Shown here piece after piece: positions 18,015-63,067 of a DNA stretch of 64,000 nucleotides (position 1 is the first letter of the stretch; each line of letters opens with the position of its first letter). Under the pieces are notes generated by a model. It was given only the letters and a program-made list of their open reading frames with translations. It was not told the DNA's origin and ran no database searches. Source of the stretch: Marinilactibacillus sp. Marseille-P9653 (GTDB lineage Bacteria; Bacillota; Bacilli; Lactobacillales; Carnobacteriaceae_A); NCBI RefSeq assembly GCF_916618885.1, contig NZ_CAKAKH010000001.1, positions 1,116,001 to 1,180,000 on the forward strand. The letters are read 5' to 3'. A program made the translations under genes and the position numbers.

Positions 18015-21000
18015 ATGTTAAAGAAAACAATTACTTCTGCATTAACGGCCTCGTTGCTTGCAACGTCTGTGCCAATGAATGTAGTCGCAGTGACAGCTAG
18101 TGAAATTGGAGCAACAGAAAGCGGGACGTTGGCGGAAGAAGCGGTTTATGCCGATAGTTTAATATTTTCTACATATGTAGAAGGATCAAGTAACAATAAA
18201 GCTTTTGAAATTTATAATGGCACAGGAAGTACAGTAGATCTTGACGGATATCAAGTCGAATTATATCCAAATGGAAATACAGATCCTAACTCTATTTTAC
18301 AATTACAAGGAGTTCTTGAACATGGAGAGACATTAGTCATTGTTAACCCTAGAGCTTCAGAAGCATTGCTTGCTTATGCAGATATTCAAAATGGTGGCAT
18401 AACAGCTTACAATGGCGATGACGCTCTTGTACTTAGAAATAATGGACAAGTGATTGATTCATTTGGTCAAGTTGGAGAACGAATCGATTGGGGAAAAGAT
18501 GTAACCTTAGTTAGAAATCAGGATGTATTATCAGGAAAAACTGTCGAAACAGATGCATTCGACCCAGCGAATGAATGGACAGAGTATCCTCAGGACACTT
18601 TCAATTATTTAGGATCTCATTTAATGACGGGCGTACCTGGAGAAGCAAATCCAACCTTACCTGAAGAGTCGGAAGAAGAACTTTCACTGATTTCAATGGC
18701 TGATGCTAGAACTTTGGGAACTGGAAATGAAGTACTGGTCCAAGGCGTTATAACAGCTAAACTAAATAACACGGTACAGTTCGAAGATGAAACGGGTGGA
18801 TTCGCTATTTTCCCTGCGAGTGCGGTTCAAGCTGAAGTCGGACAACAAATCACAGTTAGAGGCAATATCAGTCAATACAATAATCTTTTACAATTACAAA
18901 ATATTGCGGTACTTGAAACTGAAGATGCAGAAGCTGTTCAACCAAGAAAGATTACTGGTTCTCAAGTAGCTTTAGAAAATGAATCCAGACTTATTGAGCT
19001 TGAAAACGTGGAGATTATTTCTGCAGCTGGAGGATCTGAGACATCAACAAACTATACGGTTCGTGCTGATGGAACAGAATTTGTATTAAGAGACGAAAGA
19101 AATGAACTAGACATCCAAGTAGGGGAAACCTATGAAACTGTAGCGGGTATCGTTCAAGTTTTCAACAGTACTTGGCAAGTCATTCCTCGCTCAATCAATG
19201 ACGTATTATTAGATTCATCAATTGTTCAAGCGCCACAAGCCAATGTAAATTCTGGAACGGTAGCTAGCGGAACAAAAATTCAATTGTCTTCTCGTTCCGA
19301 AAATGTAACCATCTATTACACAACAGATGGTTCTGAGCCTTCAACAGACTCGACATTATATACTGAACCGATTGAATTAACAGAAGATATTAGTCTTAAA
19401 GCAATTGCTGTTAGAGAAGATGCAGAATTAAGTTCAATTGCAGAATTTAACTATACGGTTTATGATGCGGAAACAGGAATTATGATTCATGATATTCAAG
19501 GACCGGGACATGTCTCACCATTTGATGGACAAACGGTTAATGATGTTCGCGGAATTGTAACGTACAAGTATGAAATTAGAGGTGCTGTATATGCACATGT
19601 TCAAACGGAAGATGACTTAAGAGATGGAGATCGTAATACTTCGGAAGCCATTGTCGTATACCTTGGAGGACGCAACTTCGCTCCTGACATCAATGTCGGA
19701 GATCATGTTGCGGTAACTGGTCAAGTCAGTGAATATTATATTGATGGATTTTCAGAAAAAGAAGACACAGATTTATCAGTCACACAAATCAACGCCAGAG
19801 ATGACCGTGGTGGATCAGTAGAAATTATTGAAACAGGTATGGAATTACCTGAAGCCATCGTCATTGACGAAGTACCTGACGAAGTGATTTCACCACTTGG
19901 ATTTGAAGAATTCAATCCTGAACTTTATGCCATCGACTTCTGGGAAGCCATGGAAGCGATGCGTGTAGAAGTAAGTGATGTGAGAGCTGTCTCACCGCAA
20001 GACCATGGTGATGTTGTGACTGTTTTAGATTCTCACGAAGCAGAAACTGTGAATGGTGGAATTTTACTCAAAGAAGATGATTTGAATCCTGAAAGAATCG
20101 GGTTCCGTCCTCAACCAAACAACGCAGCTAGAGACTTTAACGTTCTAACGGGAGATAAATTTGAAGGAAAACTAACAGGTGTTGTGATGTATGATTACGG
20201 CAACTACAAGATTTATACAGACTTAGCAGATATGGAAGCCATTCATCAACCTGCAAACAATCAACCTCAACAAACAACGATTGAACCTGTTGAAGATCAG
20301 TTAACTGTTGCATCATATAACCTTGAAAACTTTGCTGCGACGACAAGTCAGACTTCTAATGAAAAATCTGAAAGACTGGCAAATGCGATTGGAAATGATT
20401 TGAACAGTCCAGATATCGTTGGTTTAACAGAGGTTCAAGATAACGATGGACCAGGTGCTGGAGGACCAGAAGCAGATAAGTCCTATGAAAGATTGATTGA
20501 CGCTATTTTTGCAGCATCAGGCACCAAATACGAATACGTTAATATTGATCCTTTAATGAATCAAGACGGTGGACAACCGAATGCTAATATTCAAGTTGGC
20601 TTTATCTATAATCCTGAACGAGTATCTTTTGTAGATTCGATTGAAAAAGGAGACGCAACAACAGCTGCAGGTTACGAGAATGGAAATATGACAGTAAATC
20701 CTGGACGTATTGACCCAGAAAACCCAGTTTTCAGTAATTCAAGAAAACCACTAGCTGCTCAGTTTGACTTCCAGGGAGAACAAGTGATTACAATCATTAA
20801 CCACTGGAATTCTAAACGTGGAGATGATGCGACTTTCGGACAAAATCAGCCGATTGAATATGGTAGTGAAGTAAAACGTAAAGGGATTGCAGAAGCTGTT
20901 ACAGCATTTGTTGAAGAAGTCTCAACAGATAATCCAGATGCGAATATCGTCTCAATGGGTGACTTCAATGACTTCCAGTGGACAGATGCTTTGAAGATTC

Positions 21001-22160
21001 ACGAAGGAGACTATCTGACAAATATGGTCAACTCAGTGCCGCTTGAAGAACGTTATTCTTATGTATACCAAGGAAGTTCACAGGTACTTGACCATATTTT
21101 AGTATCAAACCACTTAGCAGAAAATACAAAAATCGATATGCTTAAAATTAATGCAGATTTCACTGATGAATCTGGAAGAGCGAGTGACCACGATCCAGTA
21201 ATCGTTCAAATTGCCTTCACTGACTCTGACGAAACAGAAGTACCAGAAGAACCTGAAACGCCAGAAATCGAAGTTTCTAGAATTGCCGGTGAAAAGAGAT
21301 TTGATACAGCCGTTGAAATCAGTAAAGCTGGATGGGAGCGTTCAGATGTCGTGGTAATTGCGAATGGATTTGAATTCGCCGATGCTCTTGCTGGAGCACC
21401 TTTGGCGGCTGAGTTAGATGCCCCCATTCTTTTAAGCCGTAATGATAAACTGGACGATGTTGTAATGGAAGAAATCCAGAGATTAGGCGCTACACGTGCT
21501 GTTATCCTTGGTGGAGATAATGCTGTTGGTAGACAAGTTAACCAACAACTTGGAAGAAACGGTATTTATACTAGAAGAATCGCTGGAGAAAATCGCTACG
21601 AAACAGCTAGGTTAATCTCTAGAGAAGTTTCTAATAGAACTTCTTCAGAAGAAGCCATTGTTGTAAGTGGACAAAACTTTGCCGATGCATTGAGTATTGC
21701 TTCGTATGCTAGTCAAGAAGGTATGCCAATCTACCTCTCAAGAACCAATACACTTTCAGAAGAACTAGAAAATACACTTACTGACTACGAACAAGTCATG
21801 TTCATTGGTGGAGAAGCTGCCGTTAGTAGTGAAATTGAAAGTACGATTGAAAAATCAGGAACAGCGACAACTCGTATTGCTGGAGATACTAGATACGATA
21901 CCAATTTAGCGGTACTTGAAATGATGGATATCAATGGAGATAATCTATACGTTGCGACTGGAACGAACTTTGCGGACGCTTTAACTGGATCTGTTTTAGC
22001 TGGAATCGAAGGAACAGGTGCAGTATTAGTTAGAGATAATGAAGAAACACTTGAAAACTTTAAAACGTTTAGTGATCAATCCTCATTCGAACGTTATACA
22101 ATTTTCGGAGGCCCTGCTGCAGTATCATCAAGCATTGAAGAACGTCTAAATAACTTCTAG
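18015..22160 (+). CDS. secreted endonuclease/exonuclease/phosphatase-family nuclease with CWB2 anchor
   Basis: 1381 residues, exported and wall-bound. The signal peptide is at about 1-30. A lamin-tail-like domain at about 47-165 (FEIYNGTGSTVDLDGYQV) and OB-fold segments from about 225 follow. A chitobiase-type Ig segment (YYTTDGSEPSTDSTLY) is near 430-455. The EEP catalytic domain runs from about 755 to 1070, with ASYNLENFA, GLTEVQDNDG, MGDFNDFQW and SDHDPV, which hold the Asn, Glu, Asp/Asn and Asp-His residues of the DNase I-like site. Three CWB2 modules begin near 1088 (RIAGEKRFDTA, RIAGENRYETA, RIAGDTRYDTN). The layout is that of ExeM/NucH-like extracellular nucleases with an added anchor. 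It probably degrades external DNA or RNA. Confidence 0.9.
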   Translation: MLKKTITSALTASLLATSVPMNVVAVTASEIGATESGTLAEEAVYADSLIFSTYVEGSSNNKAFEIYNGTGSTVDLDGYQVELYPNGNTDPNSILQLQGVLEHGETLVIVNPRASEALLAYADIQNGGITAYNGDDALVLRNNGQVIDSFGQVGERIDWGKDVTLVRNQDVLSGKTVETDAFDPANEWTEYPQDTFNYLGSHLMTGVPGEANPTLPEESEEELSLISMADARTLGTGNEVLVQGVITAKLNNTVQFEDETGGFAIFPASAVQAEVGQQITVRGNISQYNNLLQLQNIAVLETEDAEAVQPRKITGSQVALENESRLIELENVEIISAAGGSETSTNYTVRADGTEFVLRDERNELDIQVGETYETVAGIVQVFNSTWQVIPRSINDVLLDSSIVQAPQANVNSGTVASGTKIQLSSRSENVTIYYTTDGSEPSTDSTLYTEPIELTEDISLKAIAVREDAELSSIAEFNYTVYDAETGIMIHDIQGPGHVSPFDGQTVNDVRGIVTYKYEIRGAVYAHVQTEDDLRDGDRNTSEAIVVYLGGRNFAPDINVGDHVAVTGQVSEYYIDGFSEKEDTDLSVTQINARDDRGGSVEIIETGMELPEAIVIDEVPDEVISPLGFEEFNPELYAIDFWEAMEAMRVEVSDVRAVSPQDHGDVVTVLDSHEAETVNGGILLKEDDLNPERIGFRPQPNNAARDFNVLTGDKFEGKLTGVVMYDYGNYKIYTDLADMEAIHQPANNQPQQTTIEPVEDQLTVASYNLENFAATTSQTSNEKSERLANAIGNDLNSPDIVGLTEVQDNDGPGAGGPEADKSYERLIDAIFAASGTKYEYVNIDPLMNQDGGQPNANIQVGFIYNPERVSFVDSIEKGDATTAAGYENGNMTVNPGRIDPENPVFSNSRKPLAAQFDFQGEQVITIINHWNSKRGDDATFGQNQPIEYGSEVKRKGIAEAVTAFVEEVSTDNPDANIVSMGDFNDFQWTDALKIHEGDYLTNMVNSVPLEERYSYVYQGSSQVLDHILVSNHLAENTKIDMLKINADFTDESGRASDHDPVIVQIAFTDSDETEVPEEPETPEIEVSRIAGEKRFDTAVEISKAGWERSDVVVIANGFEFADALAGAPLAAELDAPILLSRNDKLDDVVMEEIQRLGATRAVILGGDNAVGRQVNQQLGRNGIYTRRIAGENRYETARLISREVSNRTSSEEAIVVSGQNFADALSIASYASQEGMPIYLSRTNTLSEELENTLTDYEQVMFIGGEAAVSSEIESTIEKSGTATTRIAGDTRYDTNLAVLEMMDINGDNLYVATGTNFADALTGSVLAGIEGTGAVLVRDNEETLENFKTFSDQSSFERYTIFGGPAAVSSSIEERLNNF

Positions 22161-22473: not shown

Positions 22474-23529
22474 ATGTTCGATGTATCCATTATTATGCCA
22501 GTCTATAACGTCTCAGCTCATCTGCCGAGGGCTATTCAGTCTGCTTTAAACCAGACGAAGATGGACTTCGAATTAATCCTCGTCAATGACGGTTCCACAG
22601 ATAACTCTGGAGAGATTTGCGACCAGTTTGCGGAAGAAGAACCTTTATTAATTCAAGTGATCCATCAAAAGAATCAAGGGTCAGGGAAGGCCAGAAATGC
22701 TGGTCTTAGAATCGCTAGAGGAAAATATATTTATTTTGCAGATCCAGATGACTATTTCAAACCAACTTTGCTTGCAGAAAACTACCGATTAGCAGAGAAA
22801 AGAGATGCAGAAGTCGTCGTATTTGGTTATACAAAAGAAGTCGAAGGGAATCCTAGGGAAAGAGAGACCTTTTTACCAAGACAGCCTCATTTTTATACAC
22901 AAAAAGGGTTTCGTGATCACTTTCGTAACTTTTATCATTTCACGCCTTATGCATTATGGAACAAATTGTATAAACGTGCTTATTTGAAACAGCACAAGAT
23001 TCGTTTCGACGATCAAAAATTAGGACAAGATGCGCTTTTTAACCTTAAAGTCTACAGAGAAATTTCAATTGTAGCTTTTAATCGGAATCCATACTATCAC
23101 TACGTAACCCATAATGGGTCTGCGGTTAATCGATACCGGGAAGACCGTTTTGTCATGGAGTTAAATATTGCCCTCCAGTTTAAGAATCTAGTAGAACATT
23201 GGGGACGAGAAAAAGAGTTTAATGATTTACTGAAACAAGAATTCTGGCATCCGGTTTATTTGGAACTGGCAAACATTACGCATCCTGATTGTCCAATGAC
23301 AGAAGAAGAAAAAGTCGAGTGGATTAGAGCGGTATGCGAAGAAGAACACATTCGGGCATATGTAATTAAACAAGATTTAAAAGAATCGAATCCTTTCAGA
23401 TACTTACTGCATCAAAGGATTCAAAAAGAACGGTATTTGATGGCCATCAAGCTGATGGAAAAACGAAATGCTTCAGCAAATAATTACTCAAAGACCTTTC
23501 AAAAGTTGAAGAATTTTTTTAAATCTTAA
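22474..23529 (+). CDS. glycosyltransferase family 2
   Basis: GT-A fold inverting transferase, 351 residues, cytoplasmic and probably membrane-associated. The N-terminal nucleotide-binding part is VSIIMPVYNVSAHLPRAI with LILVNDGSTDNS, and the metal motif is DPDD near residue 90 (YIYFADPDDYF). An acceptor-side segment, LWNKLYKRAYL then GQDALFNLKVY, is typical of capsule/teichoic-type GT2 enzymes. TAGGAGAGG precedes the ATG. First gene of a three-gene group (two transferases and a flippase) between two CWB2 genes. Donor and acceptor sugars cannot be told. Confidence 0.88.
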   Translation: MFDVSIIMPVYNVSAHLPRAIQSALNQTKMDFELILVNDGSTDNSGEICDQFAEEEPLLIQVIHQKNQGSGKARNAGLRIARGKYIYFADPDDYFKPTLLAENYRLAEKRDAEVVVFGYTKEVEGNPRERETFLPRQPHFYTQKGFRDHFRNFYHFTPYALWNKLYKRAYLKQHKIRFDDQKLGQDALFNLKVYREISIVAFNRNPYYHYVTHNGSAVNRYREDRFVMELNIALQFKNLVEHWGREKEFNDLLKQEFWHPVYLELANITHPDCPMTEEEKVEWIRAVCEEEHIRAYVIKQDLKESNPFRYLLHQRIQKERYLMAIKLMEKRNASANNYSKTFQKLKNFFKS

Positions 23530-23579
23530 AGATACATTAAATGTACCTTTAAAATATTGATCAGAACAAGGAGTCTCGT

Positions 23580-24506
23580 ATGAATCAGCCAATCGTTTCA
23601 ATCATTGTCCCCACGTACAATGTAGAAAGATATATTGAAGAATGCCTGGATTCGATTATAGCGCAAACCTATCAAAATATTGAAGTCATCGTAATAGATG
23701 ATGGATCGACAGATGCTACTCCGTATTTATTAAAACCATACGAAAGTAAAGTTAAACTGACTTTAAACAAACTGAACAAAGGCCAAGGTGCCGTTAGAAA
23801 TCAAGGTATTGAAAAGGCGTCAGGTAAATACTTGCTATTCGTAGATTCAGATGATTGGATTGAAAGTGATACAGTAAAAAGGTTAATAGATAAGCTTCTT
23901 GAAACTCAGTCCGACTTGGTTAGATTCAACGGACAATCCTTTTTTGATGGAGGAGACCTATTTGAAAATGGTGCTCAGTACGATTTCTCCAAAATTTTAG
24001 ATCCAGGAAAAATTTATGAAGGATCAGAAAAGCTCTCAGCTAATCAAAAAGCTTATTCGGCCTCTCCGTGTTTATATATGGTAAGTCGAGCATTAATAAT
24101 GAACAAAGACATTCGTTTTCCGGAATCGATTTTGCATGAGGATGAATACTTTACAACCAAAGTCTTTCTTGCCAGTGAACAAATGTCTTATTTGAATCAC
24201 GCTTTTTATCATCGAAGATATCGAGTAGCTTCTACAATGACTGAGAATACACCTTTTCATAAAAAACGTTCGTTTAATTCTTATCTAGAGGTTTTCAAAT
24301 TACTCGAAAAACTCTATCACTCAGATCAATATGATGCTGATGAGAAAGTATTCCTGAAAAGACAATTACTTTCAATCTATAATGGTCTTCAGCAAAGTTC
24401 GGTCGAACCAGAGATGAAAAAAGTTCTAGGAGACTTGAAGTCTGTTACTTTAATGGACAAAATACGGTTGAGTGCTTCGAGAACGTACACTAAATTTAAA
24501 TCTTAA
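23580..24506 (+). CDS. glycosyltransferase family 2
   Basis: 308 residues. VSIIVPTYNVERYIEECLDS, VIDDGSTD and the metal motif DSDD (LLFVDSDDWI) mark a GT2 enzyme. HEDEYFTTKVF near residue 198 supplies the candidate catalytic base. It is a clear paralogue of the transferase at 53460: both have RFN, ASPCLY, ILHED/IIHED and YRRYR/HRRYR in the same order. AAGGAG precedes the ATG. It is probably co-transcribed with the transferase upstream and the flippase downstream. Confidence 0.88.
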   Translation: MNQPIVSIIVPTYNVERYIEECLDSIIAQTYQNIEVIVIDDGSTDATPYLLKPYESKVKLTLNKLNKGQGAVRNQGIEKASGKYLLFVDSDDWIESDTVKRLIDKLLETQSDLVRFNGQSFFDGGDLFENGAQYDFSKILDPGKIYEGSEKLSANQKAYSASPCLYMVSRALIMNKDIRFPESILHEDEYFTTKVFLASEQMSYLNHAFYHRRYRVASTMTENTPFHKKRSFNSYLEVFKLLEKLYHSDQYDADEKVFLKRQLLSIYNGLQQSSVEPEMKKVLGDLKSVTLMDKIRLSASRTYTKFKS

Positions 24507-24556
24507 AAACAAGTTATGGGAACAAACTATCAAATGAATAGAAGCAGGTATAACAT

Positions 24557-25849
24557 ATGAAAAGAAATACAATGAAAGATATCTTTCTAACATTCGTTAC
24601 TAAAATGTTTTATTTAGGTGGCAGTTTTATTATCTCGGTGCTTTTAGCTAGATTACTTGGAGCTGAAGGTCGGGGGATTGTAGCTGCTTTATTTGTTTTA
24701 CCGAATTTAATTATTAACTTAGCAGATATGGGGATCAGACAATCATCAGCTTATATGATCGGGCAAAAAAAATACACCGTTCAAGAAGTATTTTCATCTA
24801 GCTTGGTTTTATGGTTACTAGCTTCAATCGTTTCAATCCTGATACTTTTAGGGTATTACATGATTCCATCAACAACCCAGTATAATTGGGGACTAATTGC
24901 GATAGCCATTTCATTGGTGCCGATTAAAATATTGGAAACTTACTATTACGGGATTCATCAAGGCAAACAACAAATTGAGATCATGAACAAACGACATATC
25001 ATATCCTTTTTTTCAAGGTTAATAGGTGTTGTAATCCTTGTATGGATTTTGAGTACGGGAGTATACGGAGCAGCAGTTGCGACGCTACTAGCCTCAGCTT
25101 CTGTGGTACTGTATTCGTTCTGGACACTCAAAGACACAGTGAAATTTAAATTGAATTATAAAAAAGGTCTTCCACAAAAACTATTTAGAAAAGGCATTGT
25201 CTTTGCAATGGTTTTATTTATTTTAAATATTAACTATAGAATCGATATTTTAATTTTAGAAAGATTTGTATCTGCTGCTGAAATTGGGATTTATTCCGTT
25301 GGTGTCGGTTTATCCGAGTTGATATGGCAACTACCTACAGCCATAGGAACGGTACTTTTTGCCAGTAGTACGAACAGTACTTCTGATCTAGATGCAGCAA
25401 ACAAAGCAGCAAAATTACTCAGGTTTTCACTAGTTTTCTTGGTTTCCGGTTCTATTTTATTTGCACTGACTTCTAAATGGATCGTACCGTTCATATACGG
25501 AAATGAATTTCAGTCCGCTTCTGAAGTTATTAATTTACTGCTTCCAGGAATTATCTTAGTCGTTATTATTCAAATATTACATGCTGCACTTTCGGGTAGA
25601 GGCTATCCTTTAATCGGGATTCGCATTTTTATTTTAGCAATCATAGTAAACGTGATACTCAATATTTTGCTGATCCCAATTTATGGAATTAACGGAGCCG
25701 CTATTTCTTCTACAATCAGTTACGCTATTGGAGGTTTTGGTTACGCTTATGTCTTTGCTAAAAAAACTGATTTATCATTAAAAGATGTACTTATAATTAA
25801 AAAAGAAGATTTGAATGAGATCAAAAAAGCCTTAAAGCTTAAAAAATAA
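24557..25849 (+). CDS. polysaccharide flippase (Wzx/MATE-like)
   Basis: 430 residues with about twelve membrane helices of the MATE/polysaccharide-export fold. The start, MKDIFLTFVTKMFYLGGSFI then LLARLLGAEGRGIVAALFVLPNLI, is the usual Wzx signature (ARxLGxxGxG). It moves lipid-linked oligosaccharide or a glycolipid across the membrane. The gene closes a group with two glycosyltransferases and is one of two flippases in the window (the other at 51732), so two different export substrates are likely. Confidence 0.88.
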   Translation: MKRNTMKDIFLTFVTKMFYLGGSFIISVLLARLLGAEGRGIVAALFVLPNLIINLADMGIRQSSAYMIGQKKYTVQEVFSSSLVLWLLASIVSILILLGYYMIPSTTQYNWGLIAIAISLVPIKILETYYYGIHQGKQQIEIMNKRHIISFFSRLIGVVILVWILSTGVYGAAVATLLASASVVLYSFWTLKDTVKFKLNYKKGLPQKLFRKGIVFAMVLFILNINYRIDILILERFVSAAEIGIYSVGVGLSELIWQLPTAIGTVLFASSTNSTSDLDAANKAAKLLRFSLVFLVSGSILFALTSKWIVPFIYGNEFQSASEVINLLLPGIILVVIIQILHAALSGRGYPLIGIRIFILAIIVNVILNILLIPIYGINGAAISSTISYAIGGFGYAYVFAKKTDLSLKDVLIIKKEDLNEIKKALKLKK

Positions 25850-26136: not shown

Positions 26137-29100
26137 TTGAAGAAAAGTGTAAAACAAGTGACTCAGGCTTCGCTGGCCTTGATGTTAGCTTTTCCAGCCA
26201 GTCTGTTTTCGGCAGGCGCTGTGCTGGCAGAAACGAACAATAATAGCGACGAGACACAATTGAGTAGTGGACCAGAAGCGTTAAAGACACTATCTGATTT
26301 GTATGACAGTAACGACCCGGATTTCTCAATTGAGAATGACGAAGGTCCTGAGCCATATGAAGCAAATGAAAAGGTTCGTGTGATAGTAGAAGTTGAAGGA
26401 ACTCCTGGACTTACATATGCGACAAGACAAGGAGTCCAATATAGTGCACTTTCTGAAGAGACTAGAGAAGAGTTAGAATCAAATGCGATTCAAACTCAAG
26501 AATCTGTTCAGAATCGTATTGATAATGCAAATATCGAAGCAGAGTACTTAGAGAGCTTCACGACAGTCGTGAACGGATTTAGTGCCAACTTGAATTATGG
26601 TCAGCTGGAAAGAGTTGAAAATCTTCCCGGAGTGACCAGTGTAGAGATTGTCAATGAATATGAAAGACCAGAAGTAGAAGAAGGTGACATGATCAATAGT
26701 GTTGATCAAGTCAGAGGACCAGATACTTGGGAAGACTACAACGTCTTAGGGGAAAACATGGTAGTCGGTATAATCGATTCTGGGATTGATCCTTCACATA
26801 GAGATATGATTTTAAGTGAAGGTGTAGAATCTTCTCTTGATGAAAATTCACTAAATGGATTAGATTTGCCAGGTAAATTTTTTACAGAAAAAGTACCTTA
26901 CGGATATAATTACTTCGATAAAACGGATGAAATCCTTGAAACAGGTAATACCAGTTCACAACACGGTATGCACGTAGCAGGAACAGTCGCTGCAAATGGG
27001 GATATCGAAAATGGAGGAATCAAAGGGGTTGCACCAGAAGCGCAACTTCTAGCACTTAAAGTTTTCGGGAATGATCCTAGCTTAGCAACGACATACGGAG
27101 ATATCTATGTTGCCGCAATGGATGACGCTGTTCAATTAGGTGTAGATGTGCTGAACTTGAGTCTTGGTTCAGGAGCTGGATTTGTTAATCCAGAAAATCA
27201 TGAACAAAAAGCTGTTCAGCGTATGAAAGAAAATGGAGTGGTCGTTTCCATATCTGCAGGAAATTCTTCACACTTTGGTTCTGGTTCAATAGAAGGTGGT
27301 TTGAATGATACGAATCCACTGACTAAAAATCCAGATATTGGAGTTGTAGGAACGCCTTCTGTTTCTGAAGCTTCTCTAAGTGTGGCATCAAGTGAAAATG
27401 ACTTCAGTATAGCTGATGTAATGACTTGGCAAGCTGGAGAACTTGGTGGAACAGCACCTTACTTGGTAGCGGATAATGACCCTAAAGATATATTCGATGG
27501 GACAGTCGAATTAACTTACGCTGGACACGGAACACCAGCAGAACTAGAAGCAGCGGGTGTTGAAGGGAATGTAGCGGTCGTTTCTCGTGGTATGTTTACT
27601 GGCGGAGACGAGACTTATGCTGCCTTTACTGAGAAAGCTAAAGCTGCACAAGCAGCGGGAGCTATCGGTGTCATCGTTCACAATAACAATACTAGTGGTT
27701 TTGTAAGTATGCAGACTGAAGAAGCGATTACGATTCCGTATTTATTCATGCTTCAAAAAGCAGGAGACGAAATCAAAGCAGCTTCGGAAGCAGGAGAAAC
27801 AGTTACCGCAAACTTTACTGGAGAGACAACAAATATTCCAGCTCCAATTCAAGGCCAATTGTCTTCATTCAGTTCATGGGGGTTAGCTCCAAATCTTGAT
27901 TTCAAACCTGAAATCACAGCTCCAGGAGGAAATATCCTTTCTACTCAACAAGGAGATTCATACTCCTTAATGAATGGAACTTCTATGGCTTCTCCTCATG
28001 TTGCAGGTGGATCGGCTTTAGTGCTAGAAAGAGTTGATGAAGAACTAGGGTTAGAAGGTGAAGAAAGATCACACGTTGCCAAACAAATCTTGATGAATAC
28101 TGCGGTTCCATTAACAGATAAAGGAACGGTCAACGATGCATTTGGTTTAGGAAATTACTATTCTCCACGTGCGCAAGGTGCTGGTCAGATGGACCTTTAT
28201 GCTGCTCTTTCTACACCGGCTTGGGTATCAAGCCCGGCAGATGACGATGAAGGTAAAGTAGCACTAAGAGATTTCCAAGACTTTACAGAATTCCAACTAG
28301 AAGTTGAAAATTACAGTGATGAAGAAGTCCTCTATCTAGTAGAAACATCTGTGCAGACAGATCTTGCATTTGTGGATCAACTTGGTTTCACACCAGATTT
28401 AGTTGAAGCAGCTGGATTAGACAATGTAAAAGTGAATGCACCAGGTTACGTGACTGTTCCTGCGGGCGGAAAAACAACTGTGGATATTTCTTTAGATTTA
28501 TCCGATGCTCAAGTTGAGTACTTGAATGAATCAACGGCACTTGAAATGCTTGATCCAACCGATGTATTTGAGAATGGTTACTTTGTAGAAGGTTTTGTAG
28601 AGTTTGTAGATCCTTTAGATAATCATCCTACTCTAAGTGTTCCTTACGCTGGATTTAATGGAGAATGGGATCAAGTACCTACAATTGATGCAATGCGTGG
28701 TTCTGAAGACACATTCTACAATCAGACTTCATTAGTATTTGAGGAGTATGTAGAACTTCTTCCTGGAATCGGGGTAACAGATTTATTCTATCTGCCTAGC
28801 TTAAATGTTCCAGCTTTAGGAGAAACAATGTTATTCAGTGCTGAACGAATGGGTGATATACAACCAGTTCTTTCCTTACTGAGAAACGTTAAAGAAGCAC
28901 AATTCAATATCCTTGATTCAGAAGGTAATGTTGTACGTACATTAAGAAACGAAACAAACTTACGTAAAGACTATTTTGACAGAGGAAGAGCTAGTTCTAG
29001 TAATGTATTCAACCAAGCAGCTTGGGATGGAACTGTTTCTGGAGAAATAGCAGAAGATGGCGAATATGCATATGAAGTTCGTACATTAGTTGACTACGAA

Positions 29101-37552: not shown

Positions 37553-37562
37553 GAGGTGCAAC

Positions 37563-38045: not shown

Positions 38046-38061
38046 AAAAGGAGATAGAATT

Positions 38062-43754: not shown

Positions 43755-43788
43755 ACAATCAAACAGTATGAAGGAAGGAGAAGTTGAG

Positions 43789-47158: not shown

Positions 47159-47187
47159 TTCTGATCAGAAAGCTGAGGAAATCATCA

Positions 47188-50440: not shown

Positions 50441-50458
50441 GGTTAGGACAGATCAATC

Positions 50459-54457: not shown

Positions 54458-56320
54458 ATGAAAAAGAGTACAAAGAAACATATCGTAACAACGCTGATTC
54501 CATTGGCATTGGGATTTAGTTTATTAGATCATCAGGTAAGCGCTGATGAGTTGAATGGTGTGGAAGTAGAAAATATTCTTTCGCATTTAAATAATGATGA
54601 ATTAATCAGTGAAGAGAGCCTTGATTTAGATGCAGAAATTATTGATCTGACTGAAGTAAGAACGTCTTCTGTTAACAGAACCCATAAAAATGGCATCTAT
54701 ACAGTCGTGAAAGGCGATACTTTTTATTCGATTAGTCAGTCTTTCGGCCTAACGCAAACGCAACTTCGTGTATGGAACAATCTTTCTTCTATACCGAGTC
54801 ATTTAGATATCGGTACAAAACTAGCAGTCACAAAACAAGGTGTAGAAGCGAATCTGCCTTCATCACAGAAAGCAAAATTGATTGAATACGGTAAGCCACT
54901 TACATACAATTCAGCAGAAGAAATGATTCAATCACTAGCACCCGTCGCAGTTGAAATTGCGAATCAAAGCGGAGAAGAAAAACTGTGGCCTTCACTAATG
55001 CTTGCGCAAGCCATTCATGAAACGGGAGTGGAAAGAAGCGTCGGGATGAGTGACAAGTCTAGAGCGCCATACCATGTATTGATGGGACTTAAAGCAAGAG
55101 GTAGTGTTACGAGCATTTTAGACTGGACATGGGAAGAAGTTAAAGTCGGCGACAAAACTGAGAAAATTCAAGTGCTTGCTGAATTCCAGTCTTTTAGTTC
55201 TTATCCGGCTGCAGTACAAGGCTATGCAGACCGCTTAAGGTATGGTCCAGGCTGGGATAGCAATTTCTATTCTGGTACTTGGGTAAGTAATTCAAAATCA
55301 GTTTGGGATGTCTTGGATAACGGTGGTTTGAAAGGCTACGCTACAGATGGCGTTTATGTGAGTAAAATCAAAGACAAAATCAATCAATACAACCTGACAC
55401 AATATGACCGTAAAGTGTCACGTATCAGTGGAGAGACCCGTTTTGAGACAGCCGTTAATATCAGTAAACAAGGTTGGGATAAAACTAGTACGGTCGTACT
55501 GGCAAATTCTCATAACTTTGCAGATGCTTTAGCAGGTGTTCCACTAGCCGGAGCAATGAAAGCACCAATTTTACTCACTAGAACAGGTGAGCTAGAATCA
55601 GCTACCTTGAACGAGCTAAACAGATTAGGTGCTCAAAACGTTGTGATCTTAGGTGGAGAACAAGCGATTTCTGCTAATGTAGAAAAAACTTTAGCACAAA
55701 AAGTGATTTCCGTTAATAGACTCGCAGGAGAAACAAGATACCAGACGGCTGGTTTAATAGCGAAAGAACTAAATAGACAATCTCCGGGTGTAAAAGAAGC
55801 GGTTATTGTAAGTGGAGATAACTTTGTGGACGCTATGAGTGTCGCATCATTCGCTGCTCAAAATAATAGACCTATTTATTTAACAAGACAAGATCGATTA
55901 ACGGATGATATTAAAGAAGCCACTAAAACGATTAAAAATTGGCAGATCATCGGAGGTTCAAGTGTTGTTCAAGCGAGTACAGAAGCTGAACTACAAAAAC
56001 TTGGTGCCAGTGCGACAAGAATTTCCGGTTCAGACCGCTATGAAACCAATCAAAATGTGATCAAGTATTACGGTACGAGCAATAGTCAGGTTTATGTATC
56101 GACCGGTAGAGATTATATCGATGCCTTAACGGGTGCAGTACTAGCGGCTCAGAAAAATACAGGAATCATGCTAACAGAAAACAGACAAGATATTTTAAAT
56201 CGAAATATCCAATTTGTTAGTCGACAAAATATCAATCAATTCAATTTCCTTGGTGGAGAAAAAGTACTGCCAAATAAAATTGCAGATTCATTGAAAAACT
56301 ATAGTACAAAAGGTCAGTAG
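54458..56320 (+). CDS. LysM/GH73-type glucosaminidase with CWB2 anchor
   Basis: 620 residues, exported. Signal peptide to about 29 (cut near VSA). LysM at 81-125 (YTVVKGDTFYSISQSFGLTQ). A glucosaminidase-like domain at about 145-305 has the likely catalytic E188 in LAQAIHETG. Three CWB2 modules at about 324-620 (RISGETRFETA, RLAGETRYQTA, RISGSDRYETN). Expected to cut the glycan strands of peptidoglycan. The segment after E188 is less typical (SRAPYHVLMGLKARGS, where the family usually has a NLFGIKG-like block), so activity is probable, not certain. Confidence 0.87.
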   Translation: MKKSTKKHIVTTLIPLALGFSLLDHQVSADELNGVEVENILSHLNNDELISEESLDLDAEIIDLTEVRTSSVNRTHKNGIYTVVKGDTFYSISQSFGLTQTQLRVWNNLSSIPSHLDIGTKLAVTKQGVEANLPSSQKAKLIEYGKPLTYNSAEEMIQSLAPVAVEIANQSGEEKLWPSLMLAQAIHETGVERSVGMSDKSRAPYHVLMGLKARGSVTSILDWTWEEVKVGDKTEKIQVLAEFQSFSSYPAAVQGYADRLRYGPGWDSNFYSGTWVSNSKSVWDVLDNGGLKGYATDGVYVSKIKDKINQYNLTQYDRKVSRISGETRFETAVNISKQGWDKTSTVVLANSHNFADALAGVPLAGAMKAPILLTRTGELESATLNELNRLGAQNVVILGGEQAISANVEKTLAQKVISVNRLAGETRYQTAGLIAKELNRQSPGVKEAVIVSGDNFVDAMSVASFAAQNNRPIYLTRQDRLTDDIKEATKTIKNWQIIGGSSVVQASTEAELQKLGASATRISGSDRYETNQNVIKYYGTSNSQVYVSTGRDYIDALTGAVLAAQKNTGIMLTENRQDILNRNIQFVSRQNINQFNFLGGEKVLPNKIADSLKNYSTKGQ

Positions 56321-56368: not shown

Positions 56369-58417
56369 ATGTTTAAACATCTTCAAAAGAATACAGGTTT
56401 TAAATTTATTATCGCAGCTATGTTAAGTTTTGCTCTCGTGTTTACAGTATTAAAGTTCAGCACAGTTTATGCAGAAACAGAAAATAGTGACGTAACAGAA
56501 GAAGAAATCACAGAAACACCTGAACAAGAAAACGAAGCAGTATCAGAAGAAGATCTTGAAGCGGCGTCAATAGAGCTAAACATAGACTTTACTTCCGAAG
56601 AAGAAATAACAGCTGCCTTCAAGCAGTTTCTTGCAAACTTTGACTCATTATCAGAATCAGAAATCCAAGGCTATATCAATGAGTTCTTACTCTTTTTAGA
56701 TGCGGAACAAACAGTTAATTCTCAATTGGAAATGTTTAATGTCTTGAACTTTACAGACGCTGAATTAAGCTCGCTCGTTAGCTTTATGGCAGACCATAAA
56801 GAGTCAGTTGATCAATCTTTTGTAGAAGAATTCGAAGCACTGACGCCAGAACTTGATACGGACCAATTCAGTGTATTCAGTAATGATGTATCGACTAGTA
56901 GTACCGTTATGAATTCAGTTAACAGACTTAGTGGAAGCACCCGTTTCCATACAGCTGCAGAAATCAGTAAAAATGGCTGGAGAACATCTCAAACTGTTAT
57001 CATTGCGAATTCGCATAACTTTGCGGATGCCTTAGCTGGTGTGCCATTAGCTGTAAATATGAATGTACCGATTTTACTGACTAGAACAGACAAATTAGAA
57101 GATGCAACCATCAAAGAAATTCAACGACTAGGTGCGAAACAAGCGATTATCCTTGGTGGAGAAGCAGCTATTTCTAAATCAGTAGAAAATAGATTGTCTC
57201 AACTTGGACTCTCTAATAAAAGATTCTCTGGAAAAACCCGTTATGATACAGCGGAAGTTATTGCGAATGAAATTAGAAGCCGTACAAAATCTAGCGAAGC
57301 CTTTTTAGTTAGTGGAGAAGACTTTGCGGATGCCATGAGTGTTGCTGCAATTGCAGGACGTCGTGGTGCACCTATTTACTTGACTAGAAGCAAAGCTTTA
57401 GCAGACCAACCTAAGAAAATGGCTAAGCAAATCAACATGTGGTATGTCATCGGTGGAGTGGACGCCATTAGTAAATCTTCAACAGATACCTTACACAATT
57501 CAGGAGCTAGATCGCAAAAACGTATTCCTGGTAGTAGTCGTTACGAAACCAATATCAACGTTTTAGATTTCTTTGGCATTCAAAATAGTGCTTATGTGGC
57601 AACTGGTAGAGATTTTGTGGATGCATTGACAGGATCCGTATTAGCAGGTAAAAACAATACTGGTGTTGTGCTAGTCAATGAAGTAGATGCTAACATGACA
57701 AAAGCCATGAGCTTTACACGCAACAATAAAATTAGAAGCTATACCTTATTTGGTGGAGAAGCCGTTTTACCTTCTAAGGTAGTTGATTTGTTTAAATACG
57801 AACGTTTAGGAGGTAGAAAGCCAGTCATCGTTATTGATCCAGGACATGGTGGAAACTTCTTTGGTGCTGTATATGGAATTGCCGAAAAAACTCTAAACTT
57901 AGATACTTCTAAGAGATTAAGAGATAAATTACAAAGAACAGGTAAGTACGAAGTCGTTATGACAAGAGACACAGATAAGCACTTTGCAACAGCTCTAGCT
58001 GCTGATTTGGATTATAGATCGCGCTTAGCGAACAATTTGAACGCAGATATTTTTATTAGTGTTCATTATAATGCAGGATCTAGAGGTTCTAAGGGGCTAG
58101 AGACCTTTGTTCATCACAATAGCTATCCTCAACAAACTAGACGAGAGAATCTAAATATTTCTGATTCAAGGATTAGAAAAAGTAGAGATCTTGCAGACAG
58201 TGTTCAAAACCTTATGGTTCAAAGAACAGGAATGACTAACAGAGGCGTTAAAGGTCTTAACTTAAACGTACTCAGAAAAACTCAAATGCCAGCAATCTTA
58301 GTAGAACTTGGTTTTATGAGTGATGCAAATGAACTTAAAAAAGTTCGTACAAACTCCTATCAAGAGACGATTACAACGTCTATCACAGATGGGGTCAATC
58401 GGTATTTTGGGAATTAA
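56369..58417 (+). CDS. N-acetylmuramoyl-L-alanine amidase (Amidase_3) with central CWB2 modules
   Basis: 682 residues. Signal peptide to about 31. An acidic region rich in Glu runs to about 180. Three CWB2 modules at about 187-485 (RLSGSTRFHTA, RFSGKTRYDTA, RIPGSSRYETN). The amidase domain runs from about 487 to the end, with zinc ligands H493 in VIDPGHGG, Glu in AEKTLNLD and His in ISVHYNAG, and the catalytic Glu in ILVELGFMSD. It would cleave the bond between MurNAc and the stem peptide. Forty-eight bases after the glucosaminidase gene, so the two wall hydrolases are made together. Confidence 0.93.
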   Translation: MFKHLQKNTGFKFIIAAMLSFALVFTVLKFSTVYAETENSDVTEEEITETPEQENEAVSEEDLEAASIELNIDFTSEEEITAAFKQFLANFDSLSESEIQGYINEFLLFLDAEQTVNSQLEMFNVLNFTDAELSSLVSFMADHKESVDQSFVEEFEALTPELDTDQFSVFSNDVSTSSTVMNSVNRLSGSTRFHTAAEISKNGWRTSQTVIIANSHNFADALAGVPLAVNMNVPILLTRTDKLEDATIKEIQRLGAKQAIILGGEAAISKSVENRLSQLGLSNKRFSGKTRYDTAEVIANEIRSRTKSSEAFLVSGEDFADAMSVAAIAGRRGAPIYLTRSKALADQPKKMAKQINMWYVIGGVDAISKSSTDTLHNSGARSQKRIPGSSRYETNINVLDFFGIQNSAYVATGRDFVDALTGSVLAGKNNTGVVLVNEVDANMTKAMSFTRNNKIRSYTLFGGEAVLPSKVVDLFKYERLGGRKPVIVIDPGHGGNFFGAVYGIAEKTLNLDTSKRLRDKLQRTGKYEVVMTRDTDKHFATALAADLDYRSRLANNLNADIFISVHYNAGSRGSKGLETFVHHNSYPQQTRRENLNISDSRIRKSRDLADSVQNLMVQRTGMTNRGVKGLNLNVLRKTQMPAILVELGFMSDANELKKVRTNSYQETITTSITDGVNRYFGN

Positions 58418-58749: not shown

Positions 58750-59721
58750 ATGACTATACTAGTAACAGGTGCAGCTGGTTTTATCGGTATGCATTTATCT
58801 GAGAAATTATTAAAAGAAGGACATAAGGTAGTAGGATTTGATAATTTGAACGATTACTATGATGTTCAATTGAAGAATGATAGGCTTGAACAGTTGACAC
58901 GTTATGATAATTTTACATTTATCAAAGGAAATTTAGAAGATAACGATGCTTTAACTAAATTATTTGAAAAGTTCAAAATTGAAATCGTAGTACATTTGGC
59001 AGCACAAGCAGGAGTCAGACATTCTATAAGTAATCCTAGTTTGTATATCCAATCCAATATTGTAGGGTTTTCCAACGTGATAGAGTTGTCTAAAAATCAT
59101 AATGTTCAACATTTCCTTTATGCATCATCTAGTTCAGTATACGGAATGAGTAAGACTATACCATTTTCAACAGAAGATAATGTTGATCATCCAATTAGTA
59201 TGTATGCCGCTACAAAAAAATCCAACGAATTGATTGCGCATACGTATAGTCATTTATTTAATTTAAAAACTACAGGATTAAGATTTTTTACTGTCTACGG
59301 ACCATATGGTAGACCGGATATGGCATATTTTTCTTTCACTAAAAGAATTATTAATGGAGAATCAATCAAACTTTTTAATAATGGGGATATGATGCGAGAC
59401 TTTACTTTTATAGATGATATCGTTGAAGGAATTTACAAAGTAATGATAGGCTCCAAAAAAAGTAACGAAAAAGAGATTTATAAACTTTATAATATTGGAA
59501 ATAACAAACCTGTAAAGTTACTAAGTTTTGTAGAAACACTGGAAAATCTTCTTGGAATTAAGGCATATAAAGAATTTTTGCCAATGCAACGAGGAGATGT
59601 TAAGTCAACTTATGCTAACATTGACAACTTGAAAAGAGATTTCAGCTTTGAACCAAAAATTAATATTGAAAAAGGGCTTAAAGAGTTTGTGACTTGGTAT
59701 AAAGATTATTACCACCGTTAA
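58750..59721 (+). CDS. UDP-glucuronate 4-epimerase-like NAD-dependent epimerase
   Basis: 323 residues. The NAD loop is TGAAGFIGMHLSEKLL. FDNLNDYYDVQLKNDRL is the stretch typical of UDP-glucuronate 4-epimerases (CapI/LpsL). The active site is SSSSVYG and SMYAATKKSNE (Tyr-xxx-Lys). RFFTVYGPYGRPDMAYFSFT also fits. It would make UDP-GalA from UDP-GlcA, and the enzyme that makes UDP-GlcA is encoded at 60783. The ribosome site before ATG 58750 is weak (GGATAGATTAA). Confidence 0.88.
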   Translation: MTILVTGAAGFIGMHLSEKLLKEGHKVVGFDNLNDYYDVQLKNDRLEQLTRYDNFTFIKGNLEDNDALTKLFEKFKIEIVVHLAAQAGVRHSISNPSLYIQSNIVGFSNVIELSKNHNVQHFLYASSSSVYGMSKTIPFSTEDNVDHPISMYAATKKSNELIAHTYSHLFNLKTTGLRFFTVYGPYGRPDMAYFSFTKRIINGESIKLFNNGDMMRDFTFIDDIVEGIYKVMIGSKKSNEKEIYKLYNIGNNKPVKLLSFVETLENLLGIKAYKEFLPMQRGDVKSTYANIDNLKRDFSFEPKINIEKGLKEFVTWYKDYYHR

Positions 59722-59812: not shown

Positions 59813-60756
59813 GTGGAAAATGAACAACGTACAAAAAGAAGAAGAAAAAAATACTACTAGGTCTGTTAATTTTTTTAGGAATTTTTACTGCGATTGGGCT
59901 ATTTGTAGGTTGGCAAGTTTATAAAGATATACAAGCATCTACAGACGAAATGTATACACCTTCCGATCATGATCAAAAACGAGATAATCCAGTAGTTGTA
60001 GACGAAGGGACTGACGCATTTTCTGTTTTACTATTAGGGATTGATACTGGAGACGATGGAAGAGTTGAACAAGGTAGATCTGATACGATGATGGTGATGA
60101 CTGTTAATCCTAATACTGAGAAAACTACAATAGTCAGTATTCCTAGAGACACATATACAGAAATTGTTGGTAGAGGTACAATGGACAAAATCAATCATGC
60201 ATATGCATTTGGTGGTACTTCAATGTCAGTCAATACAGTACAAAATTTGTTCGATATACCAATTGATTACTATATATCCGTGGACATGGAAGGCTTACAA
60301 CAGATTGTTGATGCAGTGGGCGGGATTACTATTACTCCTCATCTGACGTTTGAACAAAGTGGTTACAATTTTGTAAATGGTCAACAATCTAATATGAATG
60401 GAAAAATGGCTCTTGAATACTCAAGAATGCGTAAGCAAGATCCTAACGGAGATTATGGTCGTCAAGAAAGACAAAGAGAAGTAGTACAAGCTACGATAAG
60501 AAAAATGGCTTCAGTGGAATCTGTAATGAATTATAAAACTGTCCTTAATTCTTTAAGCGCGAATATGAAAACTAATCTAACTTTCAATGATATGGTCGAT
60601 ACTTTTACAAAATACAATTCAGCAATTAATACGATTGATCAAGAACAACTATCTGGAACTGGTAGACTACAAGATGGAATTTATTATGAATTTATTCCAA
60701 ATGAAGAAATTCAAAGAGTTAGTAATATACTTAAGCAAGAGCTTGGAATAAACTAG
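59813..60756 (+). pseudogene. LytR-CpsA-Psr (LCP) family ligase, frameshifted in an A7 tract
   Basis: GTG 59813, after AAGGAAC, opens VENEQRTKRRRKK and then hits a stop after an A7 run (59845-59851). One added A restores the frame: ILLGLLIFLGIFTAIGLFVG (membrane helix), then the LCP domain with LLLGIDTGDDGRVEQGRSDT, SIPRDTYTE, INHAYAFGG and YSRMRKQDPNGDYGRQERQR. The restored frame has no ATG, GTG or TTG of its own before the helix, and the ATG at 59950 would lose the helix. LCP enzymes attach glycopolymers to peptidoglycan. The intact paralogue at 62111 aligns over the whole length. Causes could be real mutation, slippage or a sequencing error. Confidence 0.85.
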
Positions 60757-60782
60757 ATTTATTTATGAAAGGAAATAAAAAA

Positions 60783-61952
60783 ATGAATATTACTGTAGTA
60801 GGAATGGGATATGTAGGTTTATCCAATGCCATTCTTTTAGCTCAAAACAATCAGGTCAAAGCTTTAGAAGTAATTGAAGAAAAAGTTGAAATGATTAATA
60901 ATAAAAAATCTCCAATAATAGATAAAGAAATTGAAAAATATTTGTCAACTAAAGAATTAAATTTGGAAGCAACTTCAGATAAATCTATTGCTTATGGACA
61001 TAATCCAGAATATGTAGTAATTGCTGCTCCCACGAATTATGATGACAAAAACAATTATTTTGATACTTCTTTAGTTGAAGTAGTTATCGAAGATGTTTTA
61101 GAGTATGTTCCTGAAGCAACGATCATTATTAAATCTACTATACCTGTTGGATATACTGCATCAGTTAAAGAAAAATTTAATACAGACAATATTATTTTCT
61201 CACCTGAATTTCTTCGCGAAGGTAAAGCGTTATACGATAACCTATATCCAAGTAGAATCATCATTGGAGAAGAATCAAGCCGTGCACAAAAATTTGCAGA
61301 TCTTTTAGTAGAAGGCGCAATAAAAGAAGACATATCGGTTCTATTGATGAATTCGACTGAAGCAGAAGCAGTCAAATTATTTGCGAACACCTACTTGGCA
61401 TTGCGGGTAGCATACTTTAATGAATTAGACACTTATGCTGAAGTACATGGATTAGATACAAAATCCATTATTGATGGTGTTAGTTTAGATCCTAGGATTG
61501 GAGATCACTACAATAATCCATCGTTTGGTTATGGTGGATATTGCTTACCTAAAGATACTAAGCAATTATTAGCTAATTATGATAAAGTTCCTAATAATAT
61601 TATTGGCGCTATTGTGGATGCCAATAGAACTAGAAAAGACTTTGTCGCTGATCAAATTTTAGCTAAAAACCCTAAAAGAGTTGGTATCTACCGGTTAGTT
61701 ATGAAAGCTGGATCTGACAACTTCAGACAGAGCTCGATTCAGGGAATTATGAAAAGACTAAAAGCTAAAGGAATCGAAGTAGTCGTTTACGAACCGGTTT
61801 TAGAAGAAAAACTGTTCTACAACTCTAAAGTATATAAGGACTTAGAAGAGTTTAAGTCCAGTGTAGATGTGATAGTAGCAAACCGATTAACTGATGACAT
61901 AGAAGATGTTAAAGAAAAAGTTTATACAAGAGATTTATATAATCTAGATTAA
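60783..61952 (+). CDS. ugd: UDP-glucose 6-dehydrogenase
   Basis: Oxidises UDP-glucose to UDP-glucuronate with two NAD+, 389 residues. Motifs: [20 protein letters not shown] (NAD), [28 protein letters not shown], and the catalytic cysteine in [14 protein letters not shown]. The start is ATG 60783, 9 bases after AAAGGA; the ATG at 60765 lies before that site. Placed between two LCP genes and near the UDP-glucuronate epimerase-like gene, so a uronic-acid-containing polymer is likely. Confidence 0.95.
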
Positions 61953-62110: not shown

Positions 62111-63067
62111 ATGGAAGAAAATAGAAAACGAAGAAGAAAAAATTCTCGATTTAAAAAGGTATTACTTAGTATACTTGGCTTTTTAGCTGTTATAGTAGCC
62201 GCGGGAGTTTTTGTGATGTGGAGAGTCTATAGTGATATTCGTAGTTCTACTGACGATATGTATGAAGAAGTAGAAGGACAAGATCAGAGAAGAGAACAAT
62301 CGGTTGATGTAGATAGTGGAGAGGACCCTTTTTCAATATTACTACTAGGATTAGACACAGGTGAATTTGGAAGAGAAGAACAAGGTAGATCTGATTCTAT
62401 TATGATTATGACAGTAAACCCAAACACGGATCAAGCTACTATGATTAGTGTTCCTAGAGATACCTATACAGAAATAATAGGTCGAGGTACAGAAGATAAA
62501 ATCAACCATGCTTATGCGTTTGGAGGTGTACCTATGACAATCAATACAGTTCAAAACTTATTTAATTTCCCTGTTGATTATTATGTTTCTGTAAACATGG
62601 AAGCTATACAAGAAATCATAGATTCTATAGGTGGTATAGAAATTACCCCTCCTCTAACATTTACTCATACAGATTTTGATTTTGTTAAAGGTCAGCAGAC
62701 ACATATGGATGGTGCTAGAGCTCTTGCCTATTCTCGTATGAGATACGACGATCCTAGAGGGGATTATGGTAGACAAGAAAGACAGAGAGAAGTACTTGAA
62801 ACAACTATTAAAAAATTTGCGACTTTAGATTCAATCTTGAACTATCGAACTGTGCTAGATTCTCTAAGTAGTAATATGCAAACCAATCTATCATTTGATG
62901 ATATAGTTGATGTGTTTTCTAAATATAGTAATTCTGCTAACAACATTGAACAAGTTCAACTGACAGGTTCCGGTAGAAAAGTAGATGGTGGGTATTATGA
63001 GTTTATACCTGATGAAGAAGTAGAAAGAGTAAGCTCCATATTAAAAACGGAACTTGAAATTAATTGA
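62111..63067 (+). CDS. LytR-CpsA-Psr (LCP) family glycopolymer ligase
   Basis: 318 residues. A basic cytoplasmic end (NRKRRRKNSRFKK) is followed by one membrane helix at about 17-37 and then the outer LCP domain. LLLGLDTGEFGREEQGRSDS, SVPRDTYTEIIGRG, KINHAYAFGG and YSRMRYDDPRGDYGRQERQR contain the Arg and Asp residues that bind pyrophosphate lipid and metal. It transfers glycopolymers from undecaprenyl pyrophosphate to peptidoglycan MurNAc. It is the intact partner of the broken gene at 59813 and may be the working ligase for the polymers encoded in this window. Confidence 0.95.
   Translation: MEENRKRRRKNSRFKKVLLSILGFLAVIVAAGVFVMWRVYSDIRSSTDDMYEEVEGQDQRREQSVDVDSGEDPFSILLLGLDTGEFGREEQGRSDSIMIMTVNPNTDQATMISVPRDTYTEIIGRGTEDKINHAYAFGGVPMTINTVQNLFNFPVDYYVSVNMEAIQEIIDSIGGIEITPPLTFTHTDFDFVKGQQTHMDGARALAYSRMRYDDPRGDYGRQERQREVLETTIKKFATLDSILNYRTVLDSLSSNMQTNLSFDDIVDVFSKYSNSANNIEQVQLTGSGRKVDGGYYEFIPDEEVERVSSILKTELEIN

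Follow-up and report, generated by a model that had tools for sequence, protein, structure and literature searches.

Gene content of the locus

The 64,000-nt window analysed here (bases 1,116,001-1,180,000 of contig 1 of the marine lactic acid bacterium Marinilactibacillus sp. Marseille-P9653, order Lactobacillales in the NCBI taxonomy; genome of 2.55 Mb, 99.8% complete, designated G000) holds a wall-polymer locus in which secreted proteins with CWB2 wall-binding modules lie among the polymer genes. An earlier note on this sequence had described six such proteins, each with three CWB2 modules, around a Wzx/Wzy-type cluster with LytR-CpsA-Psr (LCP) ligase genes downstream; Pfam and NCBIfam searches confirm this arrangement, and a seventh CWB2 protein lies beyond the window. 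CW_binding_2 (PF04122) is matched three times in each of the open reading frames (ORFs) at 18015, 26137, 31091, 35087, 54458 and 56369 (E values of about 1e-55 to 3e-52), and inspection of the first 60 residues revealed a basic-then-hydrophobic leader at the head of all six, which are accordingly predicted to be exported. The partner domains assigned by Pfam are as follows:

18015..22160, + strand: secreted nuclease-type protein (LTD, Exo_endo_phos), CWB2 triplet C-terminal
26137..30846, + strand: S8 subtilase, CWB2 triplet C-terminal
31091..33514, + strand: 5'-nucleotidase, CWB2 triplet N-terminal
35087..36463, + strand: CAP-domain protein with CWB2 triplet at 35183-36058 (Pfam, AlphaFold2 model)
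54458..56320, + strand: LysM and glucosaminidase (PF01832), CWB2 triplet C-terminal
56369..58417, + strand: CWB2 triplet and Amidase_3 (PF01520)

The seventh protein (L010:9782-10945) consists of CWB2 modules only, lies 26 kb past the end of the window and likewise carries three PF04122 modules. A search of the whole genome returned 21 modules, 18 in the window proteins and three in the seventh, and found no CWB2 outside these seven proteins. All 21 fall, together with the polymer genes, inside 69.5 kb of the 2.55 Mb genome, so that their grouping is not due to chance. As a positive control, PF04122 also matched the genome of Bacillus subtilis, whose LytC carries CWB2. In agreement with the earlier note, no S-layer precursor was noticed among the scanned ORFs. 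Insertion sequence genes occur at several points: an IS30-type gene lies inside the locus (33717-34796), IS21 and IS66 types precede the seventh CWB2 gene (L010:2154-5903), and an IS66 protein 93% identical to the one found there adjoins a pair of ChW proteins in the relative G022 (L205:5588-7522).

The genes for polymer synthesis and ligation, referred to below as cluster A and its right end, are listed here with their left boundary:

16581..17594, - strand: galE, conserved, marking the left end of the variable locus (NCBIfam TIGR01179 above cut-off)
22474..25849, + strand: two core GT2 glycosyltransferases (22474, 23580) and Wzx-like flippase (24557)
36725..40122, + strand: GT2, hexapeptide transferase, GT2 and GT4, with no counterpart in other CWB2 genomes at 45% identity
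40248..41375, + strand: WecB, UDP-GlcNAc 2-epimerase (TIGR00236 above cut-off)
41384..42328, + strand: GT2 glycosyltransferase
42357..43754, + strand: initiating polyprenyl glycosylphosphotransferase (PGT; PF02397, TIGR03025 above cut-off)
43768..45030, + strand: putative Wzy-like membrane protein with about 8 hydrophobic segments, unmatched in Pfam and NCBIfam
45033..46091, + strand: EpsG-type polymerase (Wzy; PF14897)
46118..48288, + strand: GT2 and GT4 glycosyltransferases, common to the GW genomes G024 and G025
48290..49381, + strand: putative Wzz-like protein from its sequence, no Pfam or NCBIfam match
49487..51643, + strand: GT2 and GT1/4 glycosyltransferases
51732..53153, + strand: Wzx flippase (PF13440, PF01943)
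53460..54419, + strand: GT2 glycosyltransferase
58750..59721, + strand: NAD-dependent sugar epimerase/dehydratase
59950..60756, + strand: LCP1, LCP ligase, 5' end disrupted in the assembly
60765..61952, + strand: UDP-glucose 6-dehydrogenase-like
62111..63067, + strand: LCP2, LCP ligase

Cluster A thus comprises eight GT2 and three GT1/4 genes, two Wzx-type genes, a hexapeptide transferase, WecB and a PGT, and probably has two Wzy polymerases. The earlier note had correctly singled out the initiating transferase, but the start it gave, 42375, is the second in-frame ATG of an ORF beginning at 42357. The presence of WecB and of a UDP-glucose 6-dehydrogenase points to N-acetylmannosamine (ManNAc) and an uronic acid in the polymer. 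At its right end the locus reads epimerase, LCP, UDP-glucose dehydrogenase, LCP, and is directly followed by a second cluster (cluster B), which has Wzz and Wze, a PGT of its own (L009:2629), Wzy and Wzx, together with a pyruvyl transferase and Rml genes. The LCP genes are therefore downstream of cluster A, as had been proposed, but with a cluster on each side of them an assignment to cluster A alone is not justified. For LCP1, the open frame at 59760-59950 encodes a membrane segment and has no start codon there; the likely start is in another frame across an A-rich run, and the disruption represents either a real lesion or an assembly error.

On this gene content, cluster A would build a lipid-linked repeat unit, initiated by the PGT at 42357 and containing ManNAc supplied as UDP-ManNAc by WecB and probably an uronic acid; Wzx would flip this unit, Wzy would polymerise it, and the LCP enzymes would join the polymer to peptidoglycan. 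The seven secreted proteins, including the glucosaminidase and the amidase, would be held in the wall by CWB2 triplets gripping the glycan made at the locus. The receptor might instead be the polymer of cluster B, with its Wzz/Wze, Rml and pyruvyl transferase genes, or a joint product, both LCP genes then serving the cluster B polymer. The location of the LCP genes directly before Wzz/Wze, as in capsule clusters, and that of the seventh CWB2 protein at the far end of cluster B are consistent with such a receptor. We nonetheless consider it quite improbable, given that six of the seven CWB2 proteins lie within or beside cluster A and that in three other genomes (G023, G005 and G112) CWB2 genes adjoin polymer genes of the cluster A type.

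Relationship of the CWB2 triplets to those of Clostridioides difficile

In C. difficile, CWB2 is reported to bind the anionic polymer PSII, and the Ile-Leu-Leu motif of the CWB2 repeats is reported to be essential (PMC4973711). PILL is present in module 1 of all seven triplets of the Marinilactibacillus genome, and the equivalent stretches of modules 2 and 3 differ (e.g. MPIYL). The seventh CWB2 protein resembles Cwp8, Cwp6 and SlpA in sequence. The one window triplet that was modelled with AlphaFold2, that of the CAP protein (35087..36463), yielded a predicted local distance difference test (pLDDT) score of 92 and a template modelling (TM) score of 0.88 to Cwp8 and Cwp6 (5j6q, 5j72), at an identity of about 30%. 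In a CWB2 tree, the seven triplets form a separate clade (support 100/99), the others grouping as G023/G013 (100/100) and G005/G112 (99/98). This result fits the description of the system in the earlier note as independent or transferred and, since the triplets define a clade of their own, a binding specificity of their own is possible.

A true cwp/PSII locus, transferred from Clostridioides and making a PSII-type polymer, could also account for the fold of the modelled triplet and for the presence, as in C. difficile (PMC5065235), of a Wzx/Wzy cluster and a pair of LCP genes. Gene content renders this origin highly improbable. C. difficile CD2775 is described as an enzyme of the PF04464 kind (glycerophosphotransferase); the genome contains no match to this family, and neither manC nor pgm2 was found among the ORFs of 18015-63067, the part of the genome searched for them. 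The cargo enzymes also differ from the C. difficile set, as the earlier note had remarked, and the identity to Cwp8 and Cwp6 is about 30%. PSII was rejected as the identity of the polymer on the basis of gene content, and a likeness to the PSII system beyond architecture is not supported.

Conservation of the galE-LCP interval and differences among its anchors

The locus was compared across 27 genomes of the family (own included), and the occurrence of CWB2 was also surveyed in 395 genomes of the order and 109 of the phylum. The family sample holds four congeners, among them G002, G003 and G004; G003 is Marinilactibacillus piezotolerans DSM 16108 (NZ_FOSJ01000027.1, 13,281 bases 100% identical to G003), and G112 belongs to a different family. 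A single galE match at E<=1e-60 was obtained in each of 26 of the 27 family genomes, and a locus-type LCP gene (an LCP1 homologue with an identity of 50% or more) likewise in 26, G026 having more distant ones only. Both genes share a contig in 19 of 27, at a distance of 0.4-42 kb, the gap being under 2 kb in G008, G014, G016 and G018. Core genes (GT2-a, Wzx, GT2-b and WecB) recur in 16-18 genomes with any anchor type, and variable genes lie behind them.

The anchors on the wall hydrolases of this interval, which are glucosaminidases and amidases, differ among genomes: CWB2 in G000, G013, G023, G005 and G112; GW in G003, G004, G024 and G025; ChW in G002 and G009; SPOR in G007 and G021; and TPR/SH3-like repeats in G006, G015, G017, G019 and G020. 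G022, with two ChW proteins on an unplaced 7.8 kb contig, was labelled ChW from the genome-wide search. Relatives without CWB2 thus keep the same locus with other anchors, a point missed by the earlier note, and CWB2 is one exchangeable choice. Counting the listed rows, and including contig pieces that bear galE or LCP, the interval holds 38 of the 47 CWB2, 44 of the 53 GW and 33 of the 63 ChW modules of the family. Among the 48 modules outside it, 17 are on the unplaced contig of G022 and nine lie 17-27 kb past LCP (three CWB2 in G000, six ChW in G002). Two ORFs longer than 300 aa in the joined loci have sortase-type ends, and neither is a tabulated hydrolase.

The closest congener, G004, illustrates the contrast. 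Its galE is 95% identical to that of the window, and the same interval encodes a nuclease of 1082 aa that is 71% identical to the product of 18015..22160 and ends without CWB2; its glucosaminidase and amidase carry GW, and it has two non-core polymer genes in common with the window at 40% identity. The S8 protease was considered as a case of anchor replacement and rejected, since a search of the four congeners at E<=1e-40 returned nothing, which rather indicates a gain. A second site, beside a DUF4301 gene, encodes the CWB2-only protein in the window genome, with insertion sequences between, and a ChW protein in G002. Among the further stretches examined, DUF4301 was found in G002 and G006 only; by BLAST, its neighbour in G006 resembles an amidase, and none of the anchors was found there.

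Several further features of the anchored proteins were observed. The order of domains is reversed between two LysM-glucosaminidases, CWB2 being C-terminal at window 54458-56320 and N-terminal at L037:15674-17575 (G023). In five relatives, hydrolases of 1000-1316 aa (L056:6132-10082, L065:5983-9795, L078:194-3889, L164:284-3424, L165:252-3434 and L070:14047-17049) carry long repeats with a weak Pfam TPR match, the glucosaminidases also having SH3 domains; these TPR-like repeats are perhaps an undescribed wall-binding repeat. In G003, a single ORF (L047:8509-12114) combines a CDP-glycerol glycerophosphotransferase domain, four GW modules and a GT1 domain, placing GW on a teichoic-acid-type enzyme. 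This fusion of PF04464 with GW fits GW as a sign of glycerophosphate polymers, an idea we rejected because PF04464 is absent from the GW genomes G004, G024 and G025 and present at the locus of the SPOR genomes G007 and G021. Strict exclusivity of one anchor per genome was rejected as well: G000 and G004 have three ChW modules elsewhere, G003 one broken ChW, G005 two GW in CWB2 proteins and G023 one weak GW match. The ChW triplets of G000 and G004 each belong to a small frame far from the locus (G000:C1:2036306-2036683, 271 aa; G004:C39:63001-63381, 261 aa).

Distribution of CWB2

CWB2 is present in five of the 395 genomes of the order and in four of the 27 family genomes, the window genome being counted in both; all four congeners lack it. 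All five have CWB2 genes at a polymer/LCP locus. Besides the window genome, G023 has galE, polymer genes and two CWB2 hydrolases at a contig end; G013 a CWB2 amidase, LCP and UDP-glucose dehydrogenase; G005 galE, the genes from PGT to flippase and three CWB2 proteins, with a CWB2 fragment beside LCP on a separate contig; and G112 polymer genes, three CWB2 proteins, two LCP genes and galE. Both G005 and G112 hold additional CWB2 proteins away from the locus. The co-occurrence of CWB2 and polymer genes expected by the earlier note is thus observed in all five CWB2 genomes of the order sample. The same note had reasoned that relatives commonly keeping CWB2 without such a cluster would speak against it. 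No such genome was found in the order sample. In the phylum sample, CWB2 occurs in nine of the 109 genomes, own included. Among the other eight, an LCP gene lies no more than 4 kb from CWB2 in three and was not seen near CWB2 in another three; the remaining two, with the genes on separate contigs, are not judgeable. The three without a nearby LCP gene are G397, for which only some CWB2 candidates were scored, and G449 and G488, which have a single module each.

Association of anchor class with polymer gene content

Sharing of non-core polymer genes, defined by reciprocal best hits of at least 40% identity with anchored proteins excluded, was computed for 19 genomes. Nine of the 28 available (the 27 of the family and G112) were left out because no anchored hydrolase was seen at the locus, contigs were broken or the stretch was not retrieved (G001, G008, G010, G011, G012, G014, G016, G018 and G026); G013 was entered, with non-core genes too few to count. 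Mean sharing was 0.305 for the 26 pairs with the same anchor vs 0.085 for the 127 others (permutation p=0.0002). The association holds between genera (0.300 for 14 same-anchor pairs vs 0.086 for 88; p=0.0002) and within genera (0.311 for 12 vs 0.084 for 39; p=0.009), and identity thresholds of 30% and 50% agree, the largest p being 0.034. Between genera, the same-anchor signal resides in seven of the 14 pairs (three CWB2, three ChW and one SPOR), with values of 0.29-0.94. Anchor type thus tracks polymer gene content.

In trees of the catalytic domains, anchors change five times for four states among the amidases and seven times for five states among the glucosaminidases, exceeding the minimum by just two and three changes, respectively, on long branches. 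The window glucosaminidase groups with CWB2 genomes of a different genus, and whole-gene exchange therefore explains part of the pattern.

Taken together, these data make it probable that this is a variable wall-polymer locus carrying its own non-covalently anchored wall proteins, whose anchors grip the polymer made there, polymer and anchor being exchanged as a block. In relatives, the galE-LCP interval holds other polymer genes and hydrolases of other anchor classes, and polymer and anchor would tend to swap together. More tentatively, it might well be that across the family a change of polymer brings a change of the whole anchor class (CWB2, GW, ChW, SPOR or TPR/SH3-like) on the hydrolases, at the locus and at the second site, keeping these enzymes fitted to the wall; in that case, wall-protein targeting would have been recoded naturally between sister species.

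The match of anchor and polymer is a correlation with exceptions, and several observations weigh against a strict block. The four GW pairs between genera and the three pairs involving the window show no signal (0-0.20), and the permutation shuffles labels and ignores the tree. At 40% identity, the non-core polymer genes of the window are closest to those of GW genomes, six being shared with G025 and five with G024, and it shares one with the CWB2 genome G023 and none with G005 or G112. Counterparts of the stretch running from WecB to the Wzz-like gene are present in G025 and G024. This leaves two possibilities: the CWB2 receptor is made by other genes of the window (36725-40122, 49487-51643), or the match of anchor and polymer is not strict. 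In G016, a GW protein adjoins a flippase of the CWB2 group (G005, G112 and G023). No polymer gene family was found in all CWB2 genomes and no others; an apparent CWB2-only group proved to be two families joined by single linkage, the flippase of G005, G112 and G023 and a polymerase also present in G006. SPOR domains bind peptidoglycan, so that not every anchor here need grip polymer. The LCP genes have a cluster on either side, and joint exchange could be due simply to linkage.

Several of these points are shared by a rather unlikely alternative, hitch-hiking, according to which surface genes recombine at a hot spot formed by the galE-LCP interval, polymer genes and anchored enzymes move together because they are neighbours, and the anchors grip something common to all relatives, such as peptidoglycan, lipoteichoic acid or a core polymer. 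The conservation of GT2-a, Wzx, GT2-b and WecB irrespective of anchor agrees with it, as do the combination of GW-type polymer genes with CWB2 anchors in the window, the opposite mixture in G016 and the SPOR-type hydrolases of G007 and G021. However, anchor modules are concentrated in the locus, in G000 and G002 the anchor class at the DUF4301 site, some 17-27 kb past LCP, agrees with that of the locus, and EpaU and PSII, discussed below, show polymer binding in similar loci, all of which speaks against hitch-hiking.

Comparison with known systems

The locus is real and wider than the earlier note had proposed, and its kind, a polymer locus with its own anchored hydrolases, is already known. 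In the literature surveyed by title and beginning of abstract, no report described a change of anchor class along with a polymer locus, and no paper dealt with the wall anchors of Marinilactibacillus; CWB2, SPOR, SH3 types and ChW are reported to occur on the same catalytic families (review PMC6403190).

The cwp locus of C. difficile spans about 80 kb and includes the PGT CD2783, MviN, CD2777 and LcpA/B (PMC5065235, PMC10100865). In both loci, genes for CWB2 triplet proteins accompany a Wzx/Wzy cluster that has a pair of LCP genes. The Marinilactibacillus locus departs from that of C. difficile in the genes named above (PF04464 unmatched in the genome, manC and pgm2 not found in the interval), in its cargo enzymes and in the S-layer precursor, which was not seen among the scanned ORFs. 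In B. subtilis, lytC, lytB, lytA, tagU and mnaA are placed between the tua and tag genes, and this cassette differs from strain to strain (PMC8753576). The likeness consists in an amidase gene (lytC), an LCP gene (tagU) and mnaA between teichuronic and teichoic acid genes; the B. subtilis polymers differ in being teichoic acids, and the available part of that report describes no anchor-class exchange (PMC8753576).

The closest precedent with tested binding is EpaU of Enterococcus faecalis, which is encoded in the variable part of the EPA (enterococcal polysaccharide antigen) cluster and whose variable domain is reported to bind TA decorations, the V583 form binding its own strain best and the OG1RF form being less strict (PMC13343894). 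In both systems, a wall hydrolase is encoded within a variable polymer locus and its anchor differs from one relative to another. EpaU is a GH25 muramidase with one type of variable binding domain, whereas the window encodes a glucosaminidase and an amidase instead, among several anchored proteins; the whole anchor class changes between relatives, and polymer binding by the window anchors is predicted. As polymer genes and anchor class tend to change together at this locus, close relatives in alternative states provide natural matched pairs in which each anchor is testable on the sacculi of each relative without building mutants. If correct, the exchange of polymer and anchor as a block would provide candidate ligands for CWB2, ChW and GW modules, show how a bacterium replaces its wall polymer yet keeps control of its own hydrolases, and extend the EpaU case from one strain-variable domain to the exchange of whole anchor classes.

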